Shown here: piece after piece, positions 15,821 through 52,984 of the stretch
Layout of the letters: the number at the start of each line of letters is the position of its first letter
How positions within the stretch are numbered: position 1 is the stretch's first letter
NCBI GenBank assembly: GCA_034620365.1
Contig: JAQGEQ010000380.1
Span: forward strand, 1,178,001 to 1,242,000
Length of the DNA: 64,000 nucleotides
Direction: 5' to 3'
DNA from: Pegea sp. RAD2-039
Taxonomy: Eukaryota > Chordata > Thaliacea > Salpida > Salpidae
Translations under genes and position numbers: made by a program
Notes under the pieces: generated by a model
Databases searched by the model: none
What the model was told of the DNA's origin: nothing
Seen by the model: only the letters and a program-made list of their open reading frames with translations

Positions 15821-18800
15821 ATGTTGACGTTTATACCTAGAAGATATCGAGCCTTGGCAGTTCGTGTAATCGTTTGTTTCATCTTTGGAATCTTGCTTCT
15901 TCAACTTTTACCGTCACATAAGCAAGTTTCAAAAGGGTCTGGAAGGTCAGACAAATCACTGTTTCGGTTTGAGCATGATCTTGAAGATGATAAAGATAAA
16001 TCTCTGATAAAAGATAAAGAAGAAGTTGAAATTATAGCAAGTGATGATGGAATTATTCATGAAGTCCCTCTACCACCTTCCAGCTTGCGAAGTGAAGATG
16101 GAAGCGATCTCATTCAAGATTCAGAAAATATTACAGAGGAAGTTGTACCTGAACCTTCGGTGAGTGATTTTGATTTACAAAAGATTAAACTTCATTAGCT
16201 TCAATAAAGTGACCTTTTAAGGGCTCAAGTCTCATAAAAAATAGATTAAATATTTAACTTCTTTTTTAATATTTACTAAACTGTTGAGCTTTCAAGTAGC
16301 AGTTACTTTGATTTATAAAATTAGGAAGGTTTAAACCAGTTTTTCATCTTTTCCTATTTACTATAATTATAAGATCGTGAATATTTGATTCTTGTGTATA
16401 AAATTTTACTGATGAAATAATAATTTATTATAAAAATATAATAACAAAATAAATTATGTATTTTCTGAAGTTATTTAGTTAGGAAAATCTATCAAAACGC
16501 AAATGAGGTTGTTTACAAAAACTGATAAATCATTTTGATTAATCTTTAAGTAATCAGCTGAAATTAAAATGATTGAAGTATATTAGTTCCACCGATACTA
16601 AAATAGACAATCAAATAATCTTATAAAATTGATTTTTGCATCACAATAATTAGAAAAATACTTTTTTTATACTTGCAACTAATTACATATTCAGTTGATG
16701 TTGTAGTCGATATTTTGAGTATAGAGTTCCCAACATTTTCACTTTTCTATACTTGTTGTAGAGTTTTTGAATAAGACTAGCTGGAAGCCATTTCACGTCA
16801 GACTTCTGTCAGCTTTTCTATCACTTAATCTCAGACCAGCTAAGCCTCTTAAACCTGAATCTTTCCTCTAAATGTTGCAAACTATGCTATTTTAGTTCCC
16901 ATGGGCTTTCCACTGGTAATTTTGTGTCAAATATAAATGTGAAACCGTACTTTCAATTTGTATCTGATCAAGAAGTTAATTAAAATACTTTCATTTTACT
17001 TTAGTGAAAACCCGCAACTAGCTAGTAACTAACTAGTAGTACCCATAACCTATTATTATAGTTTACAATTGCTTTATCACTTGCTTTACTTTCTATTTAA
17101 AGGCAGATGTCTTTTAATCGATTTTACATCAACTAACGCATGTTTTGTAAGAGACCGTTTTTGTCTGGTCTATTATTTGAAAGATGGTTTTTATTCCTGG
17201 GCTAACATAAAGAAATTTTGTAAAAAGCACCTAACCATTTCTTAGGCACACACCAATGAGGTTTTAATGGCTTGGATCGAAAATTTTTAATAAGTAATAG
17301 CTATAGGTCAAACTTTAAAACTATTTTATAAAATTCAAGAACATTGATAATCGAATTACTTCAACCTTAATCTATATTCAGTAACTTTTGCTTTGTCTAA
17401 TTTACTTTAAGTAAATTGTATCAAAATATTTTCAAGATAGGGACAATTAAAATGATTGAGTCTGCATCTTTATTAAAGTATTGATATATACGACAAATGT
17501 TTTAGAATGTTCATAAGCTTTAAAAGCTACAAACAGATATTGAAAACTTGTAAGCCTTAATCTAGAAATCAATCTTTAGGTATTGATCTTTCTTAATGTC
17601 AAAATAACTGTTTGGTGTCAAATAAATGAGTTATTTATGAAAGTATAACGGCAATTAGGAACTGAATATTTTCCATGTATCATGTAGGTGAAGAACGCTC
17701 TGCTTACTAATACTTTCAAATTGATCATGATTAACCTTGCTGAGTTTTAATATAACATTTTTGATCATAAACCAAGCTTGATTCATAAGTTTGGAAAATT
17801 TTAAAACAGTTTTAATGGTTTCAGAAAACAGTATTTGGTTGTTTTTGAAGAATAAATTCAACAATAACAGCTCATTAAGAAAACTTGCAATAATTTTTCC
17901 TATTATCAATTTCTATACGAAAAATAAATCTTTTTTTAGGGAAAATAATTAGCCCACCATCAATAGACCTTCAGAACTTAGTTTCCAAATATTTCTTTGG
18001 AAACTAAAATTGTTACTTTGTTGCTTTTACAGAGTAAATAAAATGTATTGAATATCAAGTACATTCTTGTTTATTGCTCCAAGAGGTCTTATAAGTAAAG
18101 ATGCTAAATATACCAAACTAGCAATACAAGCTATATGCCTTATGCAGGATTATGACTAGTTTTGCTCAAACAGCAACTACATAGTTTCTACATTTGTTCG
18201 TAATCTAAAATAACGTTAATCTATTATTAAATGACGTTAAACTGTTTTAACTCGAGTATTTGATTGAAAATTTGAATAAAATCACTTAATAGCGCTAAAT
18301 GTGTCAAGGCTTAAGCACTAAATTAAACTTAAACGTTATAAGCTTTTAAGTTTTTTAACTACTTACTACAAAAACGAAAGTTTTTTTATGGTTATGAATA
18401 AATTTTAATTATAGTTTTTTTTCAGTATGACTATTATGCTGAAAGCGAGTTAGAACCTCATTTTAAAAGACCAGCAATAGACCCTAGTTTACCAGGAGAA
18501 TTAGGAAAACCGTATAAGCTTTCAGAGGAAGAACAATCAAATGAAGAGACACAAAGAACTGTGAAAAGAGGATGGAATAATCATGCTTTCAATCATTATG
18601 TGTGTGACAAAATTTCTGTTCATAGAAGTCTACCTGATCGAAGGGATAAAGAGTTCGTTGACATATTATAAATATTTTAACAAAAGATAAAAAATGACAT
18701 TTTAATGCAGTAAACCACTAAAATGGAAATCGTTTTTACAATTACACTTGTCTTACAAAATTTGGTCAAAAATATAAATAAAAGTTATAGAAGATTTAAT

Positions 18801-21800
18801 TCAATATTTTAAAAATATAAACTTTGTCAGAAGTTTTATGGAAAGTTAAATTTTGTGATGAATGCTTTAAAAGTTGTTTTTTTCATCACCTCTTCTGATA
18901 TTAAATACCAGCAAGGTATCTTTAACCCCATGTGAAGCAGAAACATATGAATTAGCTCGATTGAGATGTATAACTCTTCCACAGCTAGAATTAATCAAAA
19001 TGTGTCTCACAGACAAATCTTGCTTTTGGTCATTAGATCTTGTAATTAGGAATGCTAAATCTGGCTCAAAGGGTTTACTTAATCTTCTGTTCTAGATGTA
19101 AGCTTGATAAGAAAGGAGAAACACGAAAGTGGAGAAAACCTCTGCCAACAACTTCAGTCATCATCATTTTTCACAATGAAGCATGGTGCGCTCTCTTACG
19201 GACAGTACATAGTGTGATTGAGACATCACCTGCTAACTTACTGAAAGAGGTCATCTTGGTTGATGATTGTAGTACAAATGGTAAACTCTTCAATAAAATT
19301 AAACTCTTTTTTTATTTTATGAATACTTTTTTCAGATAATTTAAAAAATTCATTAGATGAATATGTTTCTAAATTGAAAATAGTTCGTATAATAAGGTTG
19401 CCAAAGCGTTCTGGTTTGATTCAAGCGCGTTTAGTTGGTGCTGAAGCTGCAACTGCTGAAGTTTTAACTTTTTTGGACTCGCATTGTAAGTAAAGAGTTA
19501 CTTTTGATAAAAATTTATCATTCATAGAAAAGTTTTAATCAATTCTTTAAGTTTCTTCATGAGTCTGAAAATGATTTGCTTGTTTTTAAAAACTGTTCCA
19601 AAAATTTATAAAATTTATTGACTGAAAGTTCTTAAAAATTGAAATATTAATTTGACTTCAATCCAAGTGATATTGCAAACATATTTCTTTTTTACGATTG
19701 TTATTAAATTCAAATTGAATTATCCAATACTTTCAGTTGTAACTAGATAATTAATTGAACAACTAACCTTTAAATACTTGCCACATAAATGAGATGAAAC
19801 CTTCAAATAATCATCCAATCTTTTTAATTCATTATCTACAATAAACTCACAATGCAGGTGAATGTGCTCCTCACTGGTTGGAACCTTTGCTTGAAGGAAT
19901 AGCGCAGGATCCAAAACGAGTAGTCTGCCCAGTAATCGAAGTAATAGATGCAGATAACTTTGCTGTTAGCACTACGACAGCCAGGTATACTTGATTTGAA
20001 TTTATATTTTTTTGTGGGGATTATTCAACTTCAACTTTTCTATTTGAAACTTTTTTGTAATTTTTTAAATCAAATGTAAATTTGTTTTTTGACTTTTGTT
20101 TGAAATATGAAAGACAAAAGCTCCAAGTTGTTGATCTCGAAAATTTAAAACAATCCATCAACATAAAAAACAAGAAAAATAAATATTATAACAATAAATG
20201 TAACAAAAAGCAAGTTTAAATTAATATAACTTAAAGTAAACTGAAATACATTTCAAATTTCATAAAACAAAAATTGAAACAAACTGTGGTAAAATCACTA
20301 CAACTGTCTATCTTTAAAAAACTGTTTTAGATTTATTTTAAAACATTTAAACATTATTAGCTTTTAATTACTTGAAAAAGTAATTATAATATTAGTTATC
20401 AGTCTCTTATTACTTACTCATTCTACGAGTATATACTATATTGGTATTTAAATGATTTTAAAAAATCATTTAGCGTAGTAATTCATATTAGTTATCCAAA
20501 TATGGACCAGGTCAGTACAACGTGGTGTCGTTAGTTGGTCATTAGTGTTTGGTTGGTCCAAACAAAAGCCTGAAAATAATGTCTATGAAAATGAGATGTG
20601 GATAGATAGTCCTACAATGGCTGGTGGGCTATTTTCAATTGATAAGAAATATTTCAATCACATTGGTACTTATGACGGAGACATGAAAGTTTGGGGTGGA
20701 GAAAATATTGAGATGTCATTTAGAGTAAGCTTTGTTCTTTTGTCGCTTCTGCATTATCCTATTTTACATAAAGTTTTTCTTTCAAAACTTTTCTAAATTT
20801 TAAGATAATTTTCATCACTTAGAATAAACTTTGGCATTAATTAAAGTTTGTAAAAAAGTATAAAATAATTAATTGAAAATAAATTAAACTGTTTAGCTAT
20901 AGTAGTTAGTAAAAATAAAGTTTATACCGCTTATAAATATATTTATTTGCAAGTAACACTTATTAGATCTCCTTTTTTACGTATATAATAAAACATATTA
21001 AGTATTAGCATTACTTTTACTAAAGTTTGATGCTTTCTTTCGTTAAAAGAAATTATTTTCAAACTCAACTTATAAAATGATTAGTAGCATTTGATTATAA
21101 AACTAAAACATTCTTTTCTGCAAACTAAAACAAAGTAAGAGTTATTTATGATAAATTATTAACACAAATTTCAAATCTATTGAAACAGTTCAGATCTAAA
21201 TAATAATCTCAATAAGCTCAAAAAATAACAAAAATAATTGAAATTACTTTAACTTTAGATATGGATGTGCGGGGGGTATATACAAATAAATGCATGCTCT
21301 CATGTGGGCCACATCTTTCGTAAGTACGCCCCATATACTCATCCAGGAGGTACTGATGTTATCATTCGAAATAATAAGCGATTAGCTGAAGTTTGGATGG
21401 ATGAATACAAAGAAGAATACTACAAGCGAGTACCAAAAGCAAGAAAGGTTTGTAGCAAAATCAGTTTTTAAAAATAAATTAAAGTTGTATGTACCTAAAG
21501 CCAATTTAATTAGATGGATGTTGGAGACTTATCAGATCGATTTCAACTACGAAAAGATCTTCAATGTGAAGATTTTCAATGGTATCTTACAAATATTTAT
21601 CCTGAGCTATATGCTCCTCCTAAAGAAGATATTATTCTTAGTGGAGAGGTATGATCGTTCATACATCTTGCTTGATCAAAATGTTCTATGAAATAAAAGT
21701 TTTTTAATTTCAATAATTTTTTGAGAACATTTTCCATAAAGTTTGTTTTTGTGTTAAAGTGGCGGAACAGAGGCAAAAATGGCTTCTGTTTAGACTCTCA

Positions 21801-23604
21801 AAATCCTTCGGGAATTTCAGGAAAGCGAGTCGCGATCTATCCTTGTCATAAGCTGGGATCAAATCAGGTTTTACAATTCTTATATCCGATATCAATTATT
21901 TTTGAGATTATAATTTCGCTTTAGTTAAGTTTTTTATTTTAGGCTTAATTAAGAAAGTATTTTTGATATATTGTTAGAAACTTGATAAATAAACTCTTGC
22001 TTTCAAGATTGAACATTTAAATCCGTTGTTTACATCTCTATATTTGGATCTTACAAGCCATTAATGTTTTTATGATGTAAAATGATTTAGTTTTTATAGA
22101 TTTTTTATAGCAAATTTCATTTAATAATATCTTCATAAACCATACGGCAAAATTATTGACAAAAAAATAGAAAAACATTCATTTTTAGAAATGGGGAGAT
22201 ATACATTTTTAAAGATTCTAAAATCTAAAATTTTTGCTAAAATGTTTGACCTTTAAAACCCAATTTTATGACTATAACCTAAAAACAAAGCTTTTAGACA
22301 AAAATTTGAAGAAATTTAATGTAAAACAAAGTAATAAACCAATAAAATAATTAATGATAAGTAGCTTATCAAAGTTTGCTTTTCACTGGAGATAAAAGCG
22401 AGGTACTAAGATTAAATATAGTAGTTGGCAATTTAAGACCCAGAATTATGTGTTAAAATTAGTCAAATAGAATGAAAAATATATTAATTTATGATTAAAA
22501 TTTTAGTTGACGCAAAAATAAACAAATACAAAGCTGGATAAAGATTATAAATTGTTTGGATAAATGATAACGTTAAAACTTAAAAATAAAAAAGTTAAAA
22601 AAAGATAATAGCAAAGATAAGGTAAAGTGGGAAGCATCGAAAATATTCGGTTCAATTGATCAAAATTTTCTTTCGAATAGTTTAGATCTGATGTTGAAGT
22701 ACTAATGTTATATAAATCTCATGAAGAATTGAGTTTAGACTCCAGGCTGATTACATGAGGTTATTTTCTCACTATTAATTTCTGTTTTGATATTTTATGA
22801 TTTACCTTGGCTACGTAGAAGCAGTAGATGAAAAAAGTTGATGATTTCTTAATAACTTTCTGCCTGTATATTGGCTTTCATCAAAGTAAAAAGCAGCGTG
22901 CGCTAAACTACCTCCACTCCTTAAGCCTAATGCGAGACGACCTGGTACGGTGACCTGGGACCGTGTTACATTGACCGATTGTGGATTTCTTGTCTGAGTT
23001 TACTCCAACATTCTTTGCTCTTCCTAAAGCAGCAACAAGACACTGATAGTTAGGAAAGATAGCCTGATGTTTGGTATTACACAGAGCGTTGTGTCGTATC
23101 TTCGATGACAAAGTCGAATTTGAAGCCAGACTGGAAACAATTATATCCAAATTGATTTGTTTCTTATTTTTAAATTGTTTAGTTTTTGTGATTTCAAAGC
23201 CATATTTATGTTAAAGGATTTCACCTTCACCCGCCAGAATGAAATACGACATAACTTTGTTCATGAACTTTGTTTACAAGCAATTGGCAACGTAGTTGTG
23301 GCTCAAACTTGTATATATCCTCTTGGTAAAGTCCCTCCTCAACAACAGTGGAAGATTTCTGAGGTTGGAATTGATTTTAGGATGATCAAATATTTCTTTA
23401 CGAATGTTTTTAACTACACTTAGTAAATCAATTATAATTAAACTTCTAGTAAAATCCTACTATTTTGTACAGGATGGAAAAATACAACAAAAAAATAATT
23501 ATAAATGTCTGGATGTTGACTCATCAAACTCCTTATGGCTTCTTCCGTGTCAAGAAGATAAGCTAACTCAAAAATGGATTATTACAGAACTCACTAATCT
23601 ATAA
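15821..23604 (+). CDS. GALNT: Polypeptide N-acetylgalactosaminyltransferase (GALNT11-like), proximal isoform
   Basis: Golgi type II membrane enzyme that starts mucin-type O-glycosylation by moving GalNAc from UDP-GalNAc to Ser/Thr. Exons: 15821-16159, 18426-18652, 19096-19280, 19336-19485, 19858-19984, 20511-20724, 21259-21447, 21514-21648, 21760-21867, 23217-23363, 23473-23604; 650 aa. Start chosen because residues 15-30 form the N-terminal signal anchor ([17 protein letters not shown]) after a basic segment. An acidic stem follows, then GELGKP, the GT-A domain with [13 protein letters not shown] and the metal-binding FLDSHCEC (DxH), then [23 protein letters not shown] and SHVGHIFRK. The C-terminal ricin-type lectin domain has CLD/QW repeats ([16 protein letters not shown]). 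The DSH and IWMCGG motifs resemble GALNT11, but paralogy is uncertain. All catalytic motifs are intact. Exons 6-11 have a second counterpart downstream. Confidence 0.93.
18874..19095 (+). pseudogene. Possible decayed BEL/Pao-type retroelement fragment in GALNT intron 2
   Basis: This open stretch in intron 2 is GC-richer than its surroundings. It reads [19 protein letters not shown] and then [17 protein letters not shown]. The ITLPQLEL motif recalls the RNase H segment of BEL/Pao elements (typically IPRLEL). It runs straight into the exon 3 acceptor and is in a different frame from exon 3, so it is not part of the enzyme. The assignment is a weak resemblance only. Confidence 0.25.
22888..23165 (-). 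repeat. tRNA-headed SINE, copy B (minus orientation)
   Basis: GC-rich island in the intron before GALNT exon 10. The minus strand ends GAGTGGAGGTAGTTTAGCGC, matching GAGTGGGGATAGTTCAGCAC near 58.49 kb in copy D. The B-box side (GGCTTCAAATTCGACTTTGT) matches copy D's GGTTTGAAACTTATCACTTC. The TTTACTCCAACA core is shared with copy A. An 80-codon minus-strand open frame here is a by-product. Confidence 0.65.
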
Positions 23605-25581
23605 TAATAAGATTGGTTTGAAAGAAAAAAATTGGTTACTTCTACCAATTTTGAGATACATTTATTTCTACTAGATATTAACTTGGTACTAAATCGTGCA
23701 ATAAGTTTTATCATTTAGAAGTTTAATCAAAGAGATACCTAAATATTATATTTTGCAATATTTTGCTTTATTAAGTTAATTTATCAAAAAGACACTTTAT
23801 AAGCTTGATATATCTCACGTAGAAGATCTGTTTGTAAAAAGCTTCTTTTAAGAAATATTGTTAAAAACATAATCATATGCTTAAAAATATTTAAGTAATG
23901 TGAACCGCGTTGTACTTTAACGTATATATCATAAGTTTTAGGTTTATTTTAGAAAACCTTTTTTACAAACTTGTTATTGTTTTTATCATTACAAAATAGA
24001 ATTATTTATAAATATTTTTGTAAATATTATTTAACTTAAATTATTCTAATGGTATTATTGTAATTAGTTTTGTTTATTTAATCATATAATCAGTATATAT
24101 TGATTTATTAGAAACTGTTTATTGTGAAAATAGCTTATCACTGTAACTTGTGGTAAAAAAGTAAAGTAGTTTTACCACCTGTTTTTTCGTAGTTTTGTTT
24201 TTATTTTTAATGTATTCTTTGGAATGTGAACAATAAGTTCATTGACTTTTAGATAATCTTCCTATATGTCGTGTAGCGGCCACTATCAATGGCTTAAAAA
24301 TGCTTTATACCATTCCTGATATGACGTAAAATATGTTTCATTCTAAAGCTTTCTATTTTTCGATTTGATAACAATTTTATTTTGCTTTAAGGTTCTCCTT
24401 GAGGTTTTGGTCAAAAACTGTATACCTTTATCTAGTTTTGAATTTAAATAAAACGGTATAGGCCCTTTTAGCAGCATATGAGGTTATTGGAATTTAAAAA
24501 ATGTATATTTAAGCAGAAGTCCAATCTTTTGACTTGGTATAGTTTACAAATATATACGATTTGATAAATAAACCCATAAGATATCCACACTTTGGTAGCA
24601 AATGTTCTGTGAAATAAAATGTAATGCTGCTAATTTATTTACATCATTTAATTTTCTTTAAAACTAATAGGATTATATTATGAAAGTGGTTCAAGTACTA
24701 ATTAGTATGAGAGCCAATATTGCTTTCAATTGTATCATTTAGAATAAAAAGATCAGATGGAAAAATTTGTACAAAAAAGTTATTTAATAAATTAATTAAA
24801 TATCAGACTTCTTAATTACATTTTAGTTAGAATATCATGCTAATAACAGAAGCAATGATATTCTATCAACTATGTGATGCTTTTATATCCTTAAAAATCA
24901 AACTTATAAGTTTGTTAGGAGGTGTTTGTATCTATTATATGTACATCAAACATAATAATAGAAACTTTTTAATCATACTGTCATTGTTAGAAATTTTAGC
25001 ATAAAATGCCTTTGCATTTTGCAACTTTAAAAAATTGTTTTTAAATGTTTTTAAACTAAATAGCTATTGACGGATAGACAGGCATAATCTCATTAAAGAC
25101 TTTTAAGTATATCAATTTGTTTTGTTATAAAACTAATTATATTATTTTGCTTAAACAGATGAACAGTCCTTAACATATACCTTAATAACAGCTTAATCAT
25201 ATATTTTGTGAAAACCTCACTAACCTAATGTTAACTATAATTGTCAACTTTCAAAAGTAATTTGTTAATTTCAGATTGACAGTCATTAAAGTGTTCTTAA
25301 AGATAACATTTTAAATTTTTTCCTAACTTGACTGAAGCATCATTAATTTCAGAATAAAAAATTATTTCAAATCAAACTAAATTGTGAAATAAATTTTCAT
25401 CAGGGTAAAAATAAAACTTATCAAGAAGAATTAAGAATACATTTTTGATTAAACAAAATTCAAAAATATTGGAACATCAAAAAACAAACAACTTTTCTAT
25501 AATTGTGATTATATATCTGTTACAAATAATTTATATCTATTTATATTTTGGTTTCACTTTCTCAGAAAATCTTTTATTCAG

Positions 25582-28500
25582 GCATATTCCTATTGGCGCT
25601 TTTGGCTGGGGCCTTGAGTTTCATTGGGCAACACAACCAGGCAACAAGGGAATGGAAATACAAGTAAATGACAGAGACAACCCGTTCACGTATGTACACA
25701 TGTTTTTACAAATTTTTTTGATTTAGTTACACATAAACTTCACTTGTGATTTCTAAATCAACTTTATTTAAATGATATTTCAAACATGACTTTTTGTTTC
25801 ATCTCTTCAATTTTAATTGAAGCAATGATTTTTATGATTTTAGTTTTTCTTGTTTAATTTTATATTTTGAAATATTTTTTTAAAAAGACATTTTTTTTGC
25901 AAATAACTTTGAAACTTGAAGTTAGTCAAATTTTCAAAACTTTTTCTTCTACATTTTATTAAAATGTTTCTAACTATCTGAATTATTCTTTAAATTTAAT
26001 TCTGATGTGTTTTCTTAAATACATGTCTTTAGAGCTTCTTAATTAGCTACAATTCTTCTCGTTAGACTTTGAGTATATGATGTAAATCATTTAGTATTCA
26101 ACTTTAAATACATTTAAAAGTTTAAAATAGACTATATTTACTTTTTTCTGATTCGGTCAGATACAATTGCAACAAAAATTTTGCTCCAACAAAACTTATT
26201 TAAAGTAACTTGCAAATTATGACTGAGCAAAAGCTGTGATTGTACGATTTCATTGATTTTTAAACTTTTCAACACTGTTGTAAGTCAGTCAAAATATTTA
26301 CTTTAATTTTCGTAATATTTTTGCTTTTAATCAAAATTACAACTAAAATATTTGGCAGCTACTGCAATTGGTTTGTTTTGGTAAAATTCTTAAATTATGT
26401 TTAAGTTTGTATACGCATCTATGTTGCTTGTAGAGATTGTTAATGAAGGTTGTTGTTATTCTTATCATTCAAATCAACTTTCTGTAGATTCTTTAGATAA
26501 ACGCTTCAAATTCTAAATATTTCTAAACTTCTTAAGAAATCTGTAAGCGTCCTTCTTAATCTTTCTTCTTAATCTTAGAAATTAACTGAAATTAATTCAT
26601 GAAGTTGAAACCTTATTGCTGCTGCATTTTCTATCGTAAGCCTGTCAGCTCAATCAGTAATAATTAAAATTATTCTAGAATTTGATTTCGTAAAATTCGA
26701 ACTGTGATGAAAGTGTGGAAATGTATAACAGGTTTAATTAAAGTAAAGAGCAATGAGAAGAGACACCTTTAAGTAAGAAGCTACCTAAATACTCAGTTAT
26801 CATTTTCTGCTGGTCTTATCAGTTTTATTTGTAGTATTGTTCTTTCGGTTATTTAAGCTGTAATTTAGCAATTGTATAGATGACAGAATGTTTTCAATAA
26901 GACTAGGGTATTTTTGGACGATTAAGAACTTTATTGAAGTGAATACGAAGAGACAGAGATCTTTTTGCGGAGTACAACACTAATTTTAAAAATGAACTAT
27001 TTTTACAAACTTTATAATTAACAACAATCGACAAAACACATATAGTGATTGTAGTGTAGACGCTTGCATCCTTTGCTGCCTCTGAATTAACAAGTTTATC
27101 AAACACTTTTTACTAGCTTTTGATGTCAACTTAGATTGGAAACATTAGAATGATTAATAATATTCAACGATTAGGTATTAAAAAAAATTCAAATTTATAA
27201 ATGAAATAGAAATTTAAAGTGATAAAATTGTAGCAACAATGATATTTTATATAATAAAACATAACTGAAGTAAACTGTGTTACTATGTGTCTAACTCTAC
27301 CTCTAACTAACTCTACAGCACTCCAGTTATGGCAGGAGCTTGTTTTTGCTTCGATAAATCAAATTTTATTCATTTTGGCTCATATGACCTCAGTATGAAA
27401 GGGATTGGTAGTGAGGATATTGAGCTTTCTTTTAGAGTAAGTTTTCAACTATAAGACAAAAAACGTGAGTGACTTGTATGTTTAAGGTTTGGATGTGTGG
27501 AGGCTCGATTGAAATCAATCCCTGCTCTAGAGTAGGTCATATAGGTCGCAAAAGAAAGCCATATAAAGATGAAGACTTTACTGATCGACAAGTAAAGAAC
27601 AAAATGATTATTGCTGAAACCTGGATGGATGATTATAAGTGGATGTTTTATCGTCGAACACCGAGAGTATGATGTTAAATAAGATTAGAAATTATAAAAG
27701 AATCAATCATTATCCAGTCTTTAAATAAATAATATATAAAATAATAAACAGTTTTACATCATATCTATTTACTAGTTAATAAACTTTATTAACGAGTAAT
27801 TTCAATTATAAACTTTTGTTTGTTTTAAATTAGATGAAAATTTTCTACTAATTTTGTGAAAAACTGCAGTTTGTTACAGGCTCGAGAACTTGAAACTCCT
27901 GATGTTACAGAAAGAAAGAAAAAAGTTGAAGAAATGGAATGTGGAAACTTTGAATGGTATATGAAAAACGTATCACCAGATACCCACATAGTTGCTTACA
28001 AGGATATTATCAGCCATGGAGAGGTAATCAGTTACTTTGAATTTAACTATTTTTAGCCTAAAATAGTAGTTTAATCTAAAAAGTATTTTTTATTTTATTT
28101 ATAAATGCTTACATTTGTAAAACAAGTAAAACGCAAGTCGACATCTTCATTTAAATGAAAACAAATAACCTTTGAGACATTTTGTAATATATTTCCCACT
28201 GGCACTAAATCATTTTAGTTTTACTCGTTGTTTTTTTAAACAAGTTTTAAAAATTCCATATTGTTGATTCAAGTGTAATTTTATTTGATACTTCATGGGT
28301 TTATATCATGAATAATTGATTCAAAAAAACTTATAACATAATCTTTACTACAAACTATATATAATTGTTTTGATAAAATATTAAAAATAGAATTTATTAA
28401 AACGATTTTGTAGCTACCTTAAGGTAGGGTTTGAAACAATATTAGTAGCTACCAAATCAGCACATTATCTAAGCAATGATGTACCGACAAAGCCAACCAC

Positions 28501-30824
28501 AAAACCTTCTATGTGTACATTCTTTCTTTGAAGCTCGATTGCTGTTAGGAGATAACATTTAAACATAGAAAATCGATCCCATTTATTTTTGGTTTAGTGT
28601 GATCAAAGCGTTATCAGAATTGAAATGTAATTTTTTCTAGAACACCATAGAATATTTGAAAGAAAACAATTTTTCAAACTGTTCAATATTTAAAAATGAA
28701 TTTATTAACAAATAAATAAACTATTTTAAATATAAGTTTCTTTACACCCAACATAAAAGCTTATCCATATTATTTTATCTTTAATACAAAAATATAAAAA
28801 CCTACTTTGATACTGCAAACTCTACTTTCTAAAAATTTACCGATAAATCATAAAAACAAGTATTAGCAACCTCTTTTAATCTATAAATTATTTATCATTT
28901 ACAAAATAGAAACTCAGTAATATTTTTCTGTAAAACAAAATTACACAAACAAAAGTGTTTTGAAATTTGAGGTTTAGTAAAATATTAGTATGTTCACTCA
29001 TTCTATTTTCTACTCACTAATGTGTTTGAATTAGTCCCCAAAGATTAAAAACTTTATCATGCACCTACAGATACACTAATAAAAAGTAATGTTAAAACGT
29101 ACTTTAATCGATTATATCAAATCTTGTTCATCTTTTAGTCATTTCCTGACAATTTGAGAAATTATTTGCTCTGTAAAACATGAAGAGACCTTCTTTTTAA
29201 TATTTAACCTTTATTTTACAAACATAGAAACTGTACTTTCAGTTTTGAATGGTTTTGTACTTATATAAATTATTTTTTGTTTGTCTTACTAAACAAGAAC
29301 ATTTCTCAGTTACGTAGAGACCAACTAAATATATGTTACTTTGTACAATACAAAGAAGCTGTAAAAGATCTTTTCATTTAATTTTCATTTTTTTTATCAG
29401 ATAAGACCTTCGACTGATGAATCATATTGTCTAGATTCAAACAATGTGCATGGGAACCCTGGATCAATACTAGATTTGATCAAATGTCACGGTCTAGGAA
29501 AAGGACAAGTAAAATTAAAAGCGAAACATTTTGTAAAAGAGAATGAAATGGATTTATTTAAAAACATTCTGTTCTCTAAGAATTATTGCTATTAATACAA
29601 ACTGCTTTATACACCGACTGGAAGATACTTACACTTCTGTTGGATTTGCGTTTTGTTGATTCAATGAAATTCATGTTTAGTTTCTATATTACAAATGAAA
29701 CAGTTGATAAATTACATAAAATATTCAATCGATCAACTCCTGAATAAATTAAATTGTTTTGTTAAATTGTTAGTTGTTTTTATCGCCAGGATGTCAAAAG
29801 ACAATTTGAACCATTAGAACAACTTTGTGCTTGTTTTTGGCATTCTAAAATCAAGTTGTGTTTTGATGGTTTCTTGATTGTAAAATCTATTTGTAGTTTT
29901 TAATTTTTATTATTTTTTTAATTTGAAGTACTATGAGTTCACGAAAGAAGGCGAAATCCGTCAAAATACTATTTCTGAGCTTTGTCTGTGTGGTTCAAAA
30001 AGTAAAGAAGAAGCTGATATCTGGACGGAAAAATGCCGTTTTCCGTGGCATGATACAGCTGAAAGTCACAAGTGGCTTTTACTTCCTGTGAGTATAAGTT
30101 AATAGTTCTACAAAAATCCTTTTTTATCTTAAATATAATCACTAAATAATTATCAATATTTGTTATAACATATGCTTACTAAAAACGAATGTTTTCAAGC
30201 TGGAGATAAGTTATTTAAATCGGTGAATTAGTTAAGTGAATTATTTACAATTTTCAAATAAGTTTCTTGTGAGAAAGACAAACCTTAAGTTGAATAATTC
30301 TTTAGGTAAGCTTTAACAAAAATATTTTTTTAAGTTCATTAGCATGCATACCCAAATGATATGGTTGTTAAAGTCTCGTTTCAGTCATTTTTAAGTAGTC
30401 ATTAAGAATCAAATAGCTCATTGGTTGATTTCAATTAAGAAGACTTTTTAGGAAGGAAGAATATATCACATTGAAAGTGATAGATGTCTGACATTCAATC
30501 TCCGAACTTTGAGTGTTAGTTTATTAAAATGTGTCAAGGGAACAGGACAAACGTGGAACTTCAACCAGAAAGACGGATATGATGAAGGTACTTCAATTAT
30601 GCTGCTGATTAAATTAGATATACAATTAGTAGAGTAAATAATAAATTAGTAAAAATATTACTGCTTCTGGGTTATTATCAATATCTCTCACCATACTAAA
30701 ATACATTTATCTTTCTAATTTAATTATAGAGTTTTCTGAAGATGATGATGATGATGATGACGTGAATAACTTAAGTGAAGTAGATGATACTGACGTTGTA
30801 CCAGAAAAGGGAGAATATGTCTAG
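25582..30824 (+). CDS. Second, diverged set of GalNAc-transferase 3' exons (alternative 3' half)
   Basis: Eight exons: 25582-25689, 27319-27436, 27487-27666, 27880-28023, 29401-29508, 29929-30087, 30452-30587, 30730-30824. They encode the second half of the catalytic domain (IGAFGWGLEFHW, PVMAGACFCFD, VWMCGGSIEINPCSRVGH, AETWMDDYK), the lectin domain (YCLDSNN, CLCGS, RCLTFN) and an extra acidic tail with a run of Asp ending GEYV. No signal anchor, DxH or FHNEAW exon is visible between 23605 and 25581. The first exon needs an upstream phase 2 donor, exactly what GALNT exon 5 (ending 19984) supplies; exons 1-5 plus this set total 2076 bases (691 aa). Intron phases match proximal exons 6-11, with one extra intron. 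VWGGENIE is replaced by GIGSEDIE and GGLF by GACF. It is either an alternative 3' half or a gene that lost its 5' end; intact frames in eight exons argue for use. Confidence 0.85.
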
Positions 30825-30864
30825 TCATAAATGATGTCAATACTTGCAAAACTATACGCACGAA

Positions 30865-30870
30865 AATAAA
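30865..30870 (+). terminator. AATAAA polyadenylation signal, distal GALNT exon set
   Basis: AATAAA about 40 bases after the TAG at 30822-30824. Its closeness suggests a very short 3' UTR and supports transcription of the distal set. Confidence 0.65.
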
Positions 30871-33800
30871 AATAGAGTTTCTTAAAGCTTGTTTTCACAC
30901 TGTAGTGTTTTTACATTTCTTACTTCTTTCTATGTAATCTGTCAACACAAAAATATGTCTAACCAGATGAATCTTTGATGTGTTCTAATCACCCTATGAT
31001 GTTAGATCATTGTTCACTTTTTAAGAAACAAACAACGTAAAAAATTTTGCAAATTGAAATAAAATTGATAATGTAGGTAATAAAATATGATTTTTTTTTT
31101 GTATTTTTAAAAAGCAGACAATTTTCATACAAGCTAAAACAGAGTAAACAGAAAAAGAAGATTGTTTGTAAGATATACAATTATAAATCGAAGTTAAGTT
31201 TGTGAAAATTTAGTTTTAGCAAGCACTCAGATTTTATAACTTCTTACTTTTATTAATAACACAATAATATAATTAACATAATTAATTAGTAATAATAATT
31301 TATATTATATATATAAAAATATTTTTACATAAGAAAATAAAATACATAGTCTGCTACTATAAATTCAAACAACAAAAATGTAATAGAATCAAATAAGAAT
31401 TTTTACTATTATTTGATTCACTTACAAAAGTACAAAATAAGAATTTCATTGAACTTTAAGATAAAACATTTATCAGTATAAAGCAAGCAAATACAATCAA
31501 TCATCGAGAAATATTCTAGTTTCGTTTTAGTTTACTTTCATTTTTTCTAAACAAATTTGTCATAGATAATTGTAGAATGCTTTATCAAAAATTTTTTAAA
31601 AGAAATTTCAAGATGGTATGTAGCGGTAAGAATGAAATCTTTAAAGCGTCATTTAAGTAATTATATAATCAGTTAAAACTGCTTTTTAAAAAAAAGTTAC
31701 TTGCTAAAAAGTAGTAAAAGATATGTTATTAGAAAGAGCTTTTTGGTAATAACATTAGTATACTTTATAGTATGATTTATTAATAATTATTTATCATCAA
31801 TTGAAAGTTATATAAACAGTTTTAAGGAAGTTTATTATAATACGTTTATTATTATGAGCAGTTACTGAAAATGATGAGTAAATTTTACAGTAAATTTGCC
31901 AATAGTCTTAAAACCATATAACAAATTAGGTTTAATCTTTATTACGTAGTTTATATTATATCAATAGCTCTATAAAGATTATCAAAAAGTCAAGTTGATA
32001 CCATTATCAAATATTGAAAAGGCAGCATATGTGATTTAATGTAATTCGTCAAAGCTATTTGTATTGACCTCAGTATTTGCTACAAAAAGCTAATTTATGC
32101 TACACATATGCTATGATTTCAAAAATATTTAGTCAGAGATTTGCTTCTGTAAACAAATTCACTACTGAAATCAACATTCTTTTTTATTACTGTTTATAAA
32201 ACTTCTCTCAAAAAATTCTTTTTTCTTTTCTTTATTTATTTTGAGTAGAAAAAAAAACGAAAAAAGCAGTCGTGTTTAAATAATCTGAAATTACAGACTC
32301 ATCCAAAGTTAATTTCTTATAAAGTGTTCAATGATTATGATAGTTTAAAAGACAAGAGTTTTATAGAAAACCGGTTGGTTTTTTTGCGTAGCTTGACTGA
32401 ATCAAAGTTTCCAGACAAGTAGAACAGATAATTCTCATATTTAAATACTTAAATTTCAAAAAAACTGTCTTGAAAATTACCTAATAAATGTTAAGCTAAT
32501 AATTAGTTGTGGTAGATGATTAGATTTTAAGTGAAGGTAAGAGTTATGAATGGGAGTCAATCGTTGAGTTCCTTCATTTATACTGAACGATTTGTTGGTT
32601 TTGTACGTAATTAAATTTTGATTCCATTGGAATAGGATGATGCCAATGAAAGTGTAAATGGTCAGGATTCATGAGGCGTCCATAAATTTTGAACCAAAAA
32701 TGTTTTAAATGATGTTTTTGTTAAACTTATGACACATAGATTAAAAATTAAGCATTTATTTAGTAGATCCAAAATACTTAAATTTTAGTGACTATAGAAT
32801 GCTTAATTTAGTGGCATAGAAAATAAATTAGATTAATTTTATTAAAAGCTGTCACTTTATAAATTCTTTATGAAAATCAGTAATCTTCAATAACCACAAA
32901 TATTTGTAAAAAAGTTTAGACTTCATCATAAACCATTGATATCTTCTTGTTTAAACTTTTAAATTCATCTTGTAAGTACTTTTGATACTCCAACAATAAA
33001 TGTTTTTTTTATTCCTGATAATAAATTAATAGTGAAAAAGATCTTGAAGTGAGCTTTATTTGCTGAATATTAATTCAAAATTGTGAAATACTTTTATTTC
33101 TAATGTCAAGCTTCCATTTCAGTTTATCTTTTCAGCAATATTTATTTGAAACTGAGAAGTTTAAGTTTGAACGAAAGTTCTTATAACATATAATAAAAAA
33201 TCATTTGTAAGTAAAACAAATCTGTAGGTACAAATATTATTTTAAAGTAGAAATGATTTTTGAAATCATTCTAAACTTGTTTAGAATAAAAGTTAAAAAT
33301 TTATAGGCCAAGCTGCCAGGGGACTTTCTATGGTTTTGAACTTATTGTTTAAGTGTCAGTGAAATAGTCAATAAGATTTCATAAACAATAAAAATTAAGA
33401 TTTATTAATGACTACTACATGCAAGTTATCAATCATTTTACTATTTAATTTTTTATATTTTATGGTATACCGGTTTTATTCTGATGAAAATTTGTTCATT
33501 TCTTTTTACACCCCTATAGTTCATATAATGAGAGTACGGTATTAAAATCGATATTAAACATTAATTAGGCATCAAAATTTTAATAACACTGAAAGATAAT
33601 GTAGTAAGAATGAATTTTTATTGTAAATTTTAACGATTACCATTTTCAGTTTATTTATTTGAGACGAATGATAATTTTCTCTCAAATAAATGATTTATAT
33701 TTTTATATATACTTCTATAACAACTACATGGACTTTTTAACATATCTTTTCTTAAACATCAGTATTCTTCTGTTTTCTTGTTAATGAGTGATGATAAACA

Positions 33801-46650: not shown

Positions 46651-49600
46651 TTACTTTTTAACAGCAACATCAGATTCTGGTGTTTTTAAAGCACGTGTTT
46701 CAAGGGCAACTGTTTTGGTAGAATTATTAGTCTTATAGATTCCAATAAGTCGATCAGATTGCTCGTACATTTGATTGCGCAAACTTATAACTATAAATTG
46801 AGCATTTTTAGTTCGCTCGGCGATATATCGTGCTATTATAGTTACATTTCTTGTATCTAGAGCTGCATCTATTTCATCCATAACATATAAAGGACTTGGT
46901 CTATAGTGATGCAGAGCAAATATCAGTGCTAAAGAACTTAAAGTCTTTTCGCCTCCTGATAAGTTGCAAATATTTTTCCAAGACTTTTTAGGAGGTCTAA
47001 CACTGAAAGCAATACCTTCAGAGAAAGGATCTAATGAATCAATATATTCTAATTCGGCGTCTCCCCCAAAAGTAATCAACTGATAGTTTTCCTTTAATTT
47101 ATTTGTTATGATCTTAAATCCTTCGGTGAATTCATTTAGACGCCTCTTAGAAAGATTTTCAAAGATTTTTCGCATGGTATTTCGTTCTTCAGTTACTTTT
47201 TCCAACTCACTAACTCTCTCCAAATATATCTTTTGTTTTTTTCTAAATTCTTCAAAAGAATTGAGATTTGGTGACAATTTAGCCGCTTCTGAATCTAAAG
47301 CAGAATGTTGATTATTTGTATCTACAAAGTCGTTTTTGTCTAGCTCTTGGTCAAGTGGAAATCGTTTCAAAGGTTTTACATCTTCTCCATCAATCTCTTT
47401 CAACTTATATTTACTCAGTGTCTGTTTTCCAATATGAATATCTTTTTCAAGATCACTTAGAGTAGCTTGCAAAGATTTTATGTCCTTGGAAATACCATTT
47501 ACTTTTTCAAATACTCTTCCATGTCTTTTTTGCACGTTTACCAACTTCTTCTGCGCAGTAACAACTTCCTGTTCAGCTTTTGTAGAATTTTCTTGCAGTT
47601 CATTTCTTAGATCATACAAATTGCTTGCTTCCAATTCAAGCTTTTCATAATCTTTTTCAAGCTGTTCTATTTGTTTCTTCAAATTAGTAATATCATCTTC
47701 ACCAATTTTTAAAGATTTTTCGATATTTTTATACTTTCTAGCTCCACTTTCAATAGCAATTTTATTTTTAGATATGTTTTGTGAAGTTTTCTTGATTGTT
47801 TGTTTAATATTCTCAATTTCTTCTTCTTTTGGTCCGACTTTCTTCATTCGTAATTTTAAAATATTATCATCAATCAATTTAATTTTCTTACTAAAAATAT
47901 CAGCTTTTTCAAAAGCTTCCTTAAATTTTGCTTCTTGCTCATCAAGTTGTATCTTTAAAGCGCTTTTCTGATTTTCATCAGGTGTTGCATCAAAAGCAGC
48001 TTTTTTCAATGTTACAAGTTTCTTTTTTAATTGAATAATAAGATTGCTACTATTTTTCAGCTCCATCACTATAGATTTTTTCTCCGAAGTGAGTCTTTCT
48101 AATTCGCTACTTTCAGTATTATAACTTTTTTCTTTTGATATCAAATCTTGTTGGATCACTTCCAGTTCTCTTTCATTCTTTTCACATTTCATCTTTAAGT
48201 CTTCTAAGTCAGAAGAGTCTACAACATCAGTAGTTTTGCTGTTGGTTCCCATTCTACCACGAGTAACTCGATTTCCTCCACCACTCATGGTTCCATTTGT
48301 ATCAATCAACTCACCTTTGATAGTGACAACTCTCCACCTTGTAGCTCCATAAGCAACTCTCTGGGCTATTTGAAGATCATCTGCAACTAAAGTGTCTCTT
48401 AAAGCATAATAGAAAGCAGTTTTGTATTCTGGTTTGGTGATCACGAGATCACGTAAGCGAGGTAGCGGAGCCGAAGAAGGATTTTCAGCCTGAGATTTAT
48501 ACTGTCCCATCTGCTCTAGGGCTATGAACGTAGTTCGCCCTATATTACTTCTTTTTAGTGCTTCCAGACACTTTTTAGCAGATTCAACAGTATCAACCAC
48601 ATAATGCTCGAGTGAAGAGCAGCATGAAGATATAGCTACATCATAATTTGCATCAATACCTCCCAAGTCACCAAGTCGTCCATGTATCCCTGGAATGTTA
48701 CCAGATTTTTTCAAGTCGAGCACAAAACTGTGAATCGCACCACGTGACTTGCTCTGCTGATGAGAAAATTTCATCGTTGTGAATGAATTCTGCAATTTTT
48801 GATGTTTGTTTTCAACAAGCTTCTTTCTCTCTTTTAAATCGTTTAATTCTTGTGCTCCTTTAGTGACCTTTACCGTCAGACTTTTGCTACGGTCTTCAAT
48901 CTCATCCAGACGTGATTTAAACGACTCAACTTTATTTGTATGTTCTTCAATTTGTTTTTCACATGCAACAGTAGCCTCCTTAGCTTTTGTATAATCCTTT
49001 TCGAAAAGTTCCAACTGAACTTTTGCAAGGTCGAGTTTTTCTTTTGCGGCATTTACTTCATCACTTCGTGAAAGTCTTTGCTGAACTAGATCATCTTTAT
49101 TTTTTTGAAGTTGTTTTGAGGCTTTAGTAAAATCTTTCATCATTTTCTCTAAAACTTTCTCTGCTTCTTTTTGTTCTTGATTTAAACTTTCCAATTCAGA
49201 AGTAAGCTCATCAATTGTGCCCTGTAAAGTTTCAGGTTGACTCGCAAGCTCTTCTAATTGTTTTCTTTGCTTTGCTAACTTTTTATCCAAATTCTTATAA
49301 GTGTTTTTTTTATGTTTCCTATCTTCAAATATTTCAACATTTCTTTTTTCAAAGTTAGAAAACTTTGCAATATTATCCTCAAGCTCTTGAGAAAGTCTGG
49401 ATTTCACTGCATCAAGTTCTTCAACTTTCTTTTTGGCTTCATTAAGCTCAACATTTGCTTCCTTTAAATCATCAGACAAGGCATCTTTTTCTTCAACTTT
49501 ACTTTTCACTAGCTCATTTAACCTTATACTTTTAAGCACAATTTTTCGAACATCATTTTCTTTTTTACTGTATTCAATCTGAATTATCTCATTTTTTATT

Positions 49601-50424
49601 TTCAGATACTTGATGGTATCATTACGGATTACTTCCCAGGTTTCTTTTTCTTTTTCAACTGATTTTATACGATCAAGTTTTAATTTTCTATCTTCATCAA
49701 GTTCTTGCAAAAGAAGAGTACTCTTTTCAATTGGTTCTCGAAATCTGATTGTACCAATAATATCTTCGATAAATTCCAGCATTCCATCAGTACCATGTTC
49801 CTTTTTTGACATCGGTTTCATCAAAGATATTTGTTCTACCTCGCCTTGAAGGATTAAAAATCGATTATAATTCAAGTCAATACCATAACTTTCAAGCAAA
49901 GCAGCTACTTGCTTAAAGTGAACTTTTTTCTTATCGATGAAGTAACTAGATGAATTATCTTTATAAACAGTTCTGCCAACACAAAATTGAGAATCTGGAA
50001 TCTGTTCAAATTTCCCATCAGCACTTGCAATAATTTTTGCAAAATGAACTTCGACTGAGCAAAATGTACAATTTTTATAGTTCTCACTATTATGAATTAA
50101 AACTGAAAGTTTTTTAGATCGAATTTTTTGAGCTCTAAAACCAAAGACAAATAACATAGAATCAATGACATTTGATTTACCACTACCATTTGGACCAACA
50201 ACACATGTAAAGCTGTGATCAAAAGGTCCTAGAACTTTTCGACCAGCATATGATTTGAAGTTTTCATTGATTATTTGAGTAATCATTAACCGAGAACCAT
50301 CACCAACCGCAGCTTCACACACTTGGGGAGGAGGGGCAACTGCTAATGACTCTGGCAATGAGATTTCAGGCAAGCTCACACTATTGGGATATTCAACCGC
50401 AGGAAGAACAGTAAGCAAACTCAT
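46651..50424 (-). CDS. SMC4: Structural maintenance of chromosomes protein 4 (condensin core ATPase), single exon
   Basis: ATPase core of condensin I/II; pairs with SMC2 and compacts mitotic chromosomes. 1257 aa in one uninterrupted frame. Order: N-terminal extension; ITQIINENFKSYAGRKVLGP; Walker A GPNGSGKSN at about residues 77-85; KIRSKKLSVLIHNSE; Q-loop LILQGEVEQI; long coiled coil; hinge around GIHGRLGDLGGIDANYDVAI and DTNGTMSGGG; second coiled coil; signature LSGGEKTLSSLA from about 1155; Walker B LYVMDEIDAALD from about 1179; FIVISLRNQMYEQSDRLIGI. The KIRSKKLSVLIHNSE block distinguishes SMC4 from SMC1-3. Somewhat shorter than vertebrate SMC4, with a short N-terminal extension. All ATPase motifs are intact. 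The first ATG was taken because a stop-rich stretch lies upstream. Lack of introns contrasts with every other cellular gene here. Confidence 0.97.
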   Translation of the reverse strand: MSLLTVLPAVEYPNSVSLPEISLPESLAVAPPPQVCEAAVGDGSRLMITQIINENFKSYAGRKVLGPFDHSFTCVVGPNGSGKSNVIDSMLFVFGFRAQKIRSKKLSVLIHNSENYKNCTFCSVEVHFAKIIASADGKFEQIPDSQFCVGRTVYKDNSSSYFIDKKKVHFKQVAALLESYGIDLNYNRFLILQGEVEQISLMKPMSKKEHGTDGMLEFIEDIIGTIRFREPIEKSTLLLQELDEDRKLKLDRIKSVEKEKETWEVIRNDTIKYLKIKNEIIQIEYSKKENDVRKIVLKSIRLNELVKSKVEEKDALSDDLKEANVELNEAKKKVEELDAVKSRLSQELEDNIAKFSNFEKRNVEIFEDRKHKKNTYKNLDKKLAKQRKQLEELASQPETLQGTIDELTSELESLNQEQKEAEKVLEKMMKDFTKASKQLQKNKDDLVQQRLSRSDEVNAAKEKLDLAKVQLELFEKDYTKAKEATVACEKQIEEHTNKVESFKSRLDEIEDRSKSLTVKVTKGAQELNDLKERKKLVENKHQKLQNSFTTMKFSHQQSKSRGAIHSFVLDLKKSGNIPGIHGRLGDLGGIDANYDVAISSCCSSLEHYVVDTVESAKKCLEALKRSNIGRTTFIALEQMGQYKSQAENPSSAPLPRLRDLVITKPEYKTAFYYALRDTLVADDLQIAQRVAYGATRWRVVTIKGELIDTNGTMSGGGNRVTRGRMGTNSKTTDVVDSSDLEDLKMKCEKNERELEVIQQDLISKEKSYNTESSELERLTSEKKSIVMELKNSSNLIIQLKKKLVTLKKAAFDATPDENQKSALKIQLDEQEAKFKEAFEKADIFSKKIKLIDDNILKLRMKKVGPKEEEIENIKQTIKKTSQNISKNKIAIESGARKYKNIEKSLKIGEDDITNLKKQIEQLEKDYEKLELEASNLYDLRNELQENSTKAEQEVVTAQKKLVNVQKRHGRVFEKVNGISKDIKSLQATLSDLEKDIHIGKQTLSKYKLKEIDGEDVKPLKRFPLDQELDKNDFVDTNNQHSALDSEAAKLSPNLNSFEEFRKKQKIYLERVSELEKVTEERNTMRKIFENLSKRRLNEFTEGFKIITNKLKENYQLITFGGDAELEYIDSLDPFSEGIAFSVRPPKKSWKNICNLSGGEKTLSSLALIFALHHYRPSPLYVMDEIDAALDTRNVTIIARYIAERTKNAQFIVISLRNQMYEQSDRLIGIYKTNNSTKTVALETRALKTPESDVAVKK

Positions 50425-51469
50425 TATATAAAAAAAATGAAATCAAAAAGCTGAAAGTATGTTAAAAATTTAAACTAAAATTAAGTTAAGCAGAAAATCA
50501 CTTTTTATTATTATAAATTTAAAATTAAAACTAAGGTTATATATAATATAAAAGTTATTAAATGCTGAGTTACAATGAACAATTAATATATAGCAATCAT
50601 TTATCATTATTCAAATCTAAAATATTATTATTTAAATTTAAGTGACAACCCAATATTCATATCATAAAATCTCTAAGAAAAATTTTTTTTTAACAGTTTG
50701 TAATACTGGATTATATACTAAAGCCTTTGACTAAAATTCATAATCAATCATAACTCAAATATAAAAAAATATATATAAAAATAAAATATACATAAAAATA
50801 AAATATATATATGCTATATTGTATATATATTACACAGAATATATAAAATAAATATTGATAAAATCAATTTTGGTCAATATAATTATTATACCTTTAGTAA
50901 AAAAATTACATCAAAACAACTTTTATAGAAATATTACTGAAAATAAATAAAACAAAAGATACCAACATTTTCTGCTCAACTATAATATAAAAAAATCTTG
51001 ATATAAAATTATAAAAGTTAAAAATATTGTATAAAAGAATAGTTGAATAACTAGTTACTATTATTTTTTGAAAATTTATTCGATTTCAGCTAGACGCAAC
51101 TACAAATAAAAGCATACAATTAATAAACAAGTAAAATAAACTTAGAAAAAGTGTAAAGTATAATAGAGAAAACAACTCCACATCAACTGCAAAAATTAAC
51201 TTTACTTATGTTCGAAAACAGCGGGAAAACCTAGATAATTATATCAATTTATAGATGAAACATTTTGGCTAATATTGTAAACGCCTAAGTAACTATTGTA
51301 GACTACTTTATTTTCAGCTTAATATATAAAATAACGCTTACCATAGTAACTTTCCTATAAACGTAATATAGAAAATAACTTACTTTTAAAAATCAGTTAT
51401 TATATAAATGAGAAAAGAAACTCCCAATTATAAAGCTAATTGTAAAGATAATAACAGCAGTTTTAGACC
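50425..51469. other. AT-rich upstream region of SMC4
   Basis: No exon seen. It includes a low-complexity TA/TATAAAA-rich block around 50755-50860. The SMC4 promoter and any untranslated first exon must lie here but cannot be recognised. Confidence 0.5.
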
Positions 51470-52970: not shown

Positions 52971-52984
52971 AAAAAACCGGAGCT

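Follow-up and report, generated by a model that had tools for sequence, protein, structure and literature searches.

Whether one 5′ half of a gene can serve two different 3′ halves is the question raised by a polypeptide GalNAc-transferase (GALNT) locus of the tunicate Pegea sp. RAD2-039, which lies within a 64,000-nucleotide stretch of contig JAQGEQ010000380.1 (hereafter the window, whose positions are used throughout). The rebuilding of its exons with GT-AG borders yielded five shared (S), six proximal (P) and eight distal (D) exons (Table 1), the three sets spanning 15821-19984, 20511-23604 and 25582-30824, respectively, on the plus strand. The S exons code for the anchor and the first catalytic half of the enzyme. 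The original prediction, made from the DNA letters, held that this half is used with either of two alternative 3′ halves. Isoform pairs in Ciona and Clavelina, proteins from short contigs that run from S5 into D1, and discordant trees of the 5′ and 3′ halves (all described below) point to the same conclusion, and we put the probability of this arrangement and of its shared use at roughly 0.9.

The junctions named in that prediction (19984, 20511 and 25582) were reproduced exactly by the exon rebuild. The donor at 19984, the end of S5, is in phase 2, as had been foreseen for the first distal exon, and P1 and D1 each complete the same Arg codon with it; both 3′ sets are in frame with the shared donor and, as tandem exon sets, compatible with it. 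The S and P exons together comprise 1953 nt (650 aa and a stop codon) and the S and D exons 2076 nt (691 aa and a stop codon), the former a multiple of three and the latter likewise, as originally claimed.

Homology of the two 3′ exon sets and the search for another 5′ half

Aligned with each other, the D and P halves agree at 40.9% of 176 catalytic positions and at 29.7% of 128 lectin positions, which excludes a chance likeness and identifies them as old homologues. These identities, along with the GT-AG borders, bear out the view that the eight further open exons encode another second half of the same enzyme. The correspondence can be followed along the entire length (P1 = D1+D2, P2 = D3, P3 = D4, P4 = D5, P5 = D6 and P6 = D7+D8). 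All five P introns are in phase 0, as are their counterparts in the D set, with four of the five pairs at the homologous residue and the P2/P3 intron approximately 3 codons off D3/D4 (as judged by eye). The predicted mirroring of intron phases thus holds for these five, but the D set has two additional introns, D1/D2 in phase 2 and D7/D8 in phase 1. An acidic tail opening with DGY distinguishes all eight D rows of our alignment from the six P rows, which lack it. The two sets are homologous as well as tandem, and they form sister clades (support 100/97) in the 3′-half tree.

It had also been stated that neither an anchor nor a first catalytic half lies between the two sets, where the P6 stop and D1 are separated by a gap of ∼2 kb. 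In agreement with this, tblastn searches of the window with the individual S exons returned only the query exon, with all other matches at E >0.5. Outside 18400-23700 and 25500-30900, a tblastn comparison of 12 GALNT proteins with the window recovered S1 and, apart from it, two matches at chance level (E 0.54 and 0.14). Whole-genome searches covered 105.7 Mb in 387 contigs, with only the best candidates scored. The S half gave 22 matches, 18 of them outside the locus and at most 68% identical, and the D half also gave 22, which outside the distal exons were at most 61% identical, over 31 residues. Overall, neither the window search nor, among the best candidates, the genome search with the S half revealed any credible 5′ half, hidden or distant, outside the locus that could belong to the distal set.

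Two other loci were considered and set aside. The closest other GALNT on the contig (C6, ∼3.17 Mb, L082) has its own 5′ and 3′ halves and, by eye, the look of the T1/13 type. A block at C3:1893717-1894169 (G000, minus strand) was rejected as a second distal copy, since it matches the D half at 29% and contains internal stops. This block is GALNT-like, with several exon equivalents matched within one stretch, and it may be a decayed retrocopy.

Shared 5′ halves in tunicate relatives and the proposed splicing

The proximal product has its closest named single-gene homologues in tunicates (Clavelina 56%, Styela 55% and Ciona 54%). The same arrangement, which the original prediction had suggested looking for in related genomes, is present in two of these genera as isoform pairs. 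The Clavelina lepadiformis isoforms X2 (P0123) and X1 (P0130) share 333 identical residues and those of Ciona intestinalis, X2 (P0125) and X1 (P0131), share 320. Both pairs diverge at the S5 junction, directly after ...AR, continuing as SVQ.GILSWSL in the proximal-type X2 or as VP.GAFGWGLEF in the distal-type X1. In either species the longest contig given for X1 has the same length as that given for X2. In NCBI these models, which are database models only, are named GALNT4 (Ciona) and GALNT4-like (Clavelina), whereas our trees place the gene by GALNT3/6.

A protein search with the D half found 134 proteins, and among the best 120 of them the top seven (P0124, P0001, P0002, P0130, P0131, P0135 and P0134; 676 to 406 bits) are all of the distal type, followed by a 1158-aa nematode protein at 267 bits and a next match at 197 bits. 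A 5′ half is present in six of these seven proteins (in part in P0002) and is of the S type in all six; besides Ciona and Clavelina, a 5′ half of the shared type leads into the distal half in four more relatives. The source contigs of P0124, P0002, P0134, P0135 and P0121 do not exceed 2.2-2.7 kb, which is too short for such an intron-bearing gene and marks these sequences as probable spliced transcripts. The 12 database proteins of P or D type that were placed in the tree have one set each.

The phylogenetic analysis was performed separately for the 3′ half (36 rows, including 8 D and 6 P) and the 5′ half (32 rows). In the 3′ tree the D rows form a clade at 100/100 and the P rows at 100/98; the joint D and P group adjoins the vertebrate GALNT3/6 clade with moderate support (90/81). 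In the 5′ tree, on the other hand, all ten tunicate S halves group together at 95/90 regardless of the 3′ half that they carry, again nearest to vertebrate GALNT3/6 (97/92). Constraint tests on this tree, which were run after it had been seen and with groups defined by the 3′ half, rejected a grouping of the four D-linked 5′ halves (p-AU 0.0013) as well as one of the six P-linked 5′ halves (p-AU 0.0011). One 5′ lineage with two 3′ lineages is what shared use predicts. Together with the sister position of the latter, this suggests an early duplication of the 3′ exon block in tunicates and its alternative use.

The distal set appears to be under selection roughly as strong as that on the proximal set. 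Compared with P0124, its catalytic part is 87.8% and its lectin part 85.0% identical, next to 85.8% for the shared catalytic part and 55.1% for the stem. In Clavelina the D catalytic part is 71.1% identical and the shared catalytic part 74.6%. The P catalytic part is comparable to that of D (64.8% in Ciona and 66.9% in Clavelina), and the D lectin part is better kept (63.6% in Ciona and 65.1% in Clavelina, versus 39.2% and 43.8% for P).

Based on these observations, we propose that in a tunicate gene of the GALNT3/6 line the 3′ exon block, comprising the second catalytic half and the lectin domain, was tandemly duplicated early in tunicates, and that the donor at 19984 would be spliced in cis either to 20511, leading into the proximal set with its own stop, or to 25582, leading into the distal set. 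D1 would be joined whenever P1 is passed over. With a stop at the end of P6 and no donor used there, the two sets would exclude each other at the mRNA end. The results would be two Golgi-type proteins that have the anchor, stem and nucleotide-binding half in common and differ in their acceptor and lectin halves; mixed products, for instance from a join of P3 to D5, which would be in frame, are possible. For Pegea sp. itself we infer the splicing and its cis mechanism from exon anatomy and from the relatives. The signals around the junctions say little about regulation. Eight AATAAA hexamers between the P stop and D1, compared with ∼6 expected from the window density of 3.1 per kb, do not discriminate. 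The acceptors of P1 and D1 contain 10 and 13 pyrimidines out of 20, within a range of 9-16 over 18 acceptors; constitutive acceptors are as poor as that of P1 (S5 10, P3 10, D4 9), so that acceptor strength is at most a hint.

Several observations weigh against the proposed explanation. The isoform pairs of Ciona and Clavelina come from gene models in a database; the D catalytic exons diverge faster than the shared ones in Ciona (64.4% vs 75.1% identity) and in P0134 (53.4% vs 71.2%); and no D-type sequence for Styela occurs among the matches listed, Styela clava (P0126) and lgn (P0127) being represented among the listed proteins by the proximal type only. The distal type may have been lost in Stolidobranchia or may simply be absent from the database. 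Support for the placement by GALNT3/6 in the 3′ tree is moderate (90/81), and a long D branch, together with three long outside rows flagged by the program, makes the deeper placement less sure. Finally, P0001 (421 aa) opens with MGTSR right before the distal half; it is either an incomplete contig or an alternative short start.

The latter protein, whose first five residues match S5 poorly, and the ∼2 kb that separate P6 from D1 would fit a distal set forming its own transcription unit, with a short start and a product devoid of the anchor and the nucleotide-binding half. We consider this improbable, as the other six distal-type proteins have an S-type 5′ half, whether complete or partial, two pattern searches of 23600-25600 found no start exon like that of P0001, and the open frame that enters D1 from the intron (from 25415) has no Met before D1. 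The failure of the window and genome searches to find another 5′ half is also what one would expect of an unused relic, a tandem duplicate stripped of its 5′ part. Yet all eight D exons are open with GT-AG borders, they are as conserved as the shared catalytic exons in the comparison with P0124, and seven database proteins match them, which makes a relic the least credible of these alternatives. Tunicates use spliced-leader trans-splicing, and a shared 5′ mRNA could be joined to the distal set by trans-splicing of separate transcripts; with the same strand, the proper order and compatible phases, cis-splicing is simpler and no observation demands trans-splicing, which we regard as very improbable. 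A similar discordance of the trees could arise by gene conversion between two complete genes, but this would need a second 5′ half, which neither the window search nor the best candidates of the genome search revealed in Pegea sp.

Active site and possible function of the distal product

The proximal isoform has the features of the family (a type II anchor, a family-2 catalytic fold with DxH, WGGEN and VGH, and a ricin-type lectin domain) and looks like a normal GalNAc-transferase. The expectation that the locus makes two enzymes is plausible for this isoform, while the distal isoform may deviate from an ordinary GalNAc-transferase. We counted active-site residues over the 36-row alignment (8 D and 28 non-D rows) in the numbering of human T2. 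According to the available portions of earlier reports, Asp224, His226 and His359 surround manganese and Trp331 is a key catalytic residue, whose in and out states go with activity (PMC4432651). Trp331 is reportedly termed the "gate-keeper", and the Gly309 counterpart in a snail model is linked to the N-acetyl group (PMC6994419).

The distal isoform retains all three metal ligands: Asp224 and His226 are kept in 35 of 35 covering rows (7 of 7 covering D rows), and His359, like Glu334, in 36 of 36. Both a catalytic and a lectin fold can be recognized in it, and in the structure model of a relative the overall fold is intact; with E values up to 0.001, PF02709 is reported for the proximal form alone. 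On the other hand, the distal isoform lacks two residues expected of a GALNT. In place of the gatekeeper Trp331 of WGGEN all eight D rows have Ile, and the 28 others all have Trp. At Gly309 of MAGGLF six D rows have Ala and two have Ser, and all 28 others have Gly. Asn335 is changed to Asp in four of the eight D rows, and Arg362, present in 28 of 28 others, is kept in six, with His in P0134 and P0135. The variation of Lys363 and Tyr367 in D carries little weight, since other GALNTs vary at these positions too, with Lys in 14 and Tyr in 18 of 22. Of the sugar contacts described in the accessible part of PMC4432651 (Asp458, Asn479, Tyr471 and His474), the acid of the CLD motif in the lectin alpha site is kept in seven D rows and is Glu in one, Asn479 is Gly in all eight, and Tyr471 is absent from all eight. 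The latter two are weaker signs, as only some of the other GALNTs retain these residues (Asn479 in 17 of 22, Tyr471 in 10 of 22).

We conclude that the distal form is folded and conserved. An altered or weak catalysis is quite possible, and the residue pattern makes us lean towards it; the protein may serve as a binding or regulatory partner. A less probable but serious alternative, in line with the original prediction, is a GalNAc-transferase that is fully active but prefers other acceptors. The retained metal ligands and Glu334 in all covering D rows and the modeled fold speak for it, as do the fly precedents: in the available text both pgant5 isoforms are active with distinct peptide preferences (PMC12776162) and both pgant9 isoforms are described as functional (PMC6115407). 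It is difficult to reconcile with the loss, in every D row, of the Trp described as catalytic and gate-keeping and of the glycine implicated in the N-acetyl contact, and with the additional loss of Arg362 in P0134 and P0135. Overall, we give about even odds to the complete scenario of an exon-set switch in a tunicate GALNT3/6-type gene, predating the split of Ciona, Clavelina and Pegea, that yields a normal GalNAc-transferase and, with the same anchor and nucleotide-binding half, a conserved non-canonical partner lacking the gatekeeper Trp (a pseudoenzyme, a regulator or an altered-donor enzyme).

Features of the window, precedents and implications

Table 1. Exons of the Pegea sp. GALNT locus in window coordinates
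Exon	Content	Position	Strand	Basis
S1	Start codon, cytoplasmic tail, signal anchor, stem start	15821..16159	+	Exon rebuild; helix 7-28 in model of relative P0121
S2	Stem and catalytic domain start	18426..18652	+	Exon rebuild
S3	Catalytic domain, FHNEAW region	19096..19280	+	Exon rebuild; PF00535
S4	Catalytic domain, DSH metal motif	19336..19485	+	Exon rebuild
S5	Final shared exon, phase-2 donor 19984	19858..19984	+	Same junction in Ciona and Clavelina isoforms
P1	MAGGLF and WGGEN motifs	20511..20724	+	Exon rebuild, active-site alignment
P2	VGH metal ligand and flexible loop	21259..21447	+	Exon rebuild, active-site alignment
P3	Catalytic domain end	21514..21648	+	Exon rebuild
P4	Lectin alpha repeat	21760..21867	+	Exon rebuild, Pfam
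P5	Lectin beta repeat	23217..23363	+	Exon rebuild, Pfam
P6	Lectin gamma repeat and stop	23473..23604	+	Exon rebuild, Pfam
D1	First distal exon, accepts S5 donor (HIPIGAFGWGLEF)	25582..25689	+	Same join in P0124, P0002, P0130, P0131, P0134, P0135
D2	MAGACF and GIGSED replacing MAGGLF and WGGEN	27319..27436	+	Exon rebuild, active-site alignment
D3	VGH metal ligand and loop	27487..27666	+	Exon rebuild, active-site alignment
D4	Catalytic domain end	27880..28023	+	Exon rebuild
D5	Lectin alpha repeat, CLD retained, Gly at Asn479 equivalent	29401..29508	+	Exon rebuild, active-site alignment
D6	Lectin beta repeat	29929..30087	+	Exon rebuild
D7	Lectin gamma repeat and acidic tail start	30452..30587	+	Exon rebuild
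D8	Acidic tail and stop	30730..30824	+	Exon rebuild

The intron between S2 and S3 contains a short open frame (18871-19095, plus strand) with a stretch that we take to be reminiscent of a BEL/Pao-type retroelement protein. Further along the window, an uninterrupted 1263-aa open frame on the minus strand (46651-50442) has SMC_N and SMC hinge domains (Pfam) and is intronless, unlike the nearby GALNT gene; presumably of the SMC4 type, it is possibly a retrocopy or an intron-poor gene. A 450-aa open frame on the same strand (51639-52991) has a reverse transcriptase domain (RVT_1) and by its look is part of a non-LTR-type element. Pfam assigned no family to three other open reading frames of the window, and Rfam gave no match over the window.

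Splice swaps within a GALNT gene are already known from Drosophila, as far as the available parts of the reports describe them. In the published case of pgant5A/B approximately 60 residues differ, whereas in Pegea the second catalytic half, the whole lectin domain and the tail are exchanged (∼308 vs 349 residues) (PMC12776162). The pgant9A/B isoforms likewise arise from one GALNT gene, by the alternative exons 8A and 8B, and differ in substrate preference, but the swap concerns a single exon in the lectin alpha repeat instead of a terminal block of six vs eight exons (PMC6115407). Another likeness is found in vertebrate GNAO, where a local exon-set duplication (7.1-8.1 / 7.2-8.2) is mutually exclusive and occurs in all major vertebrate clades. 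It involves two exons in a different protein family, and a loss of active-site residues is not described in the accessible part of that report (PMC5896119). The available part of PMC9741552, consulted for multi-exon set swaps, offers no case closer than these. Our literature search, which left subscription journals mostly uncovered, found no paper on a GALNT 3′-half swap in a tunicate. The original statement that no described GALNT gene of this kind is known holds for the papers covered by this search, but has to be qualified by the smaller swaps of pgant5 and pgant9 and by the NCBI isoforms of Ciona and Clavelina, in which a whole-3′-half swap conserved across tunicates is already on record.

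If the proposed shared use is correct, half of a catalytic domain and a whole lectin domain would be switched by one splice choice, a larger change than in the two published GALNT switches that we found. Since Ciona, a standard laboratory chordate, is annotated with both forms, this would be directly testable, and the common nucleotide-binding half would make the tunicate gene a natural domain-swap experiment on the second half of the enzyme and on its gatekeeper Trp.

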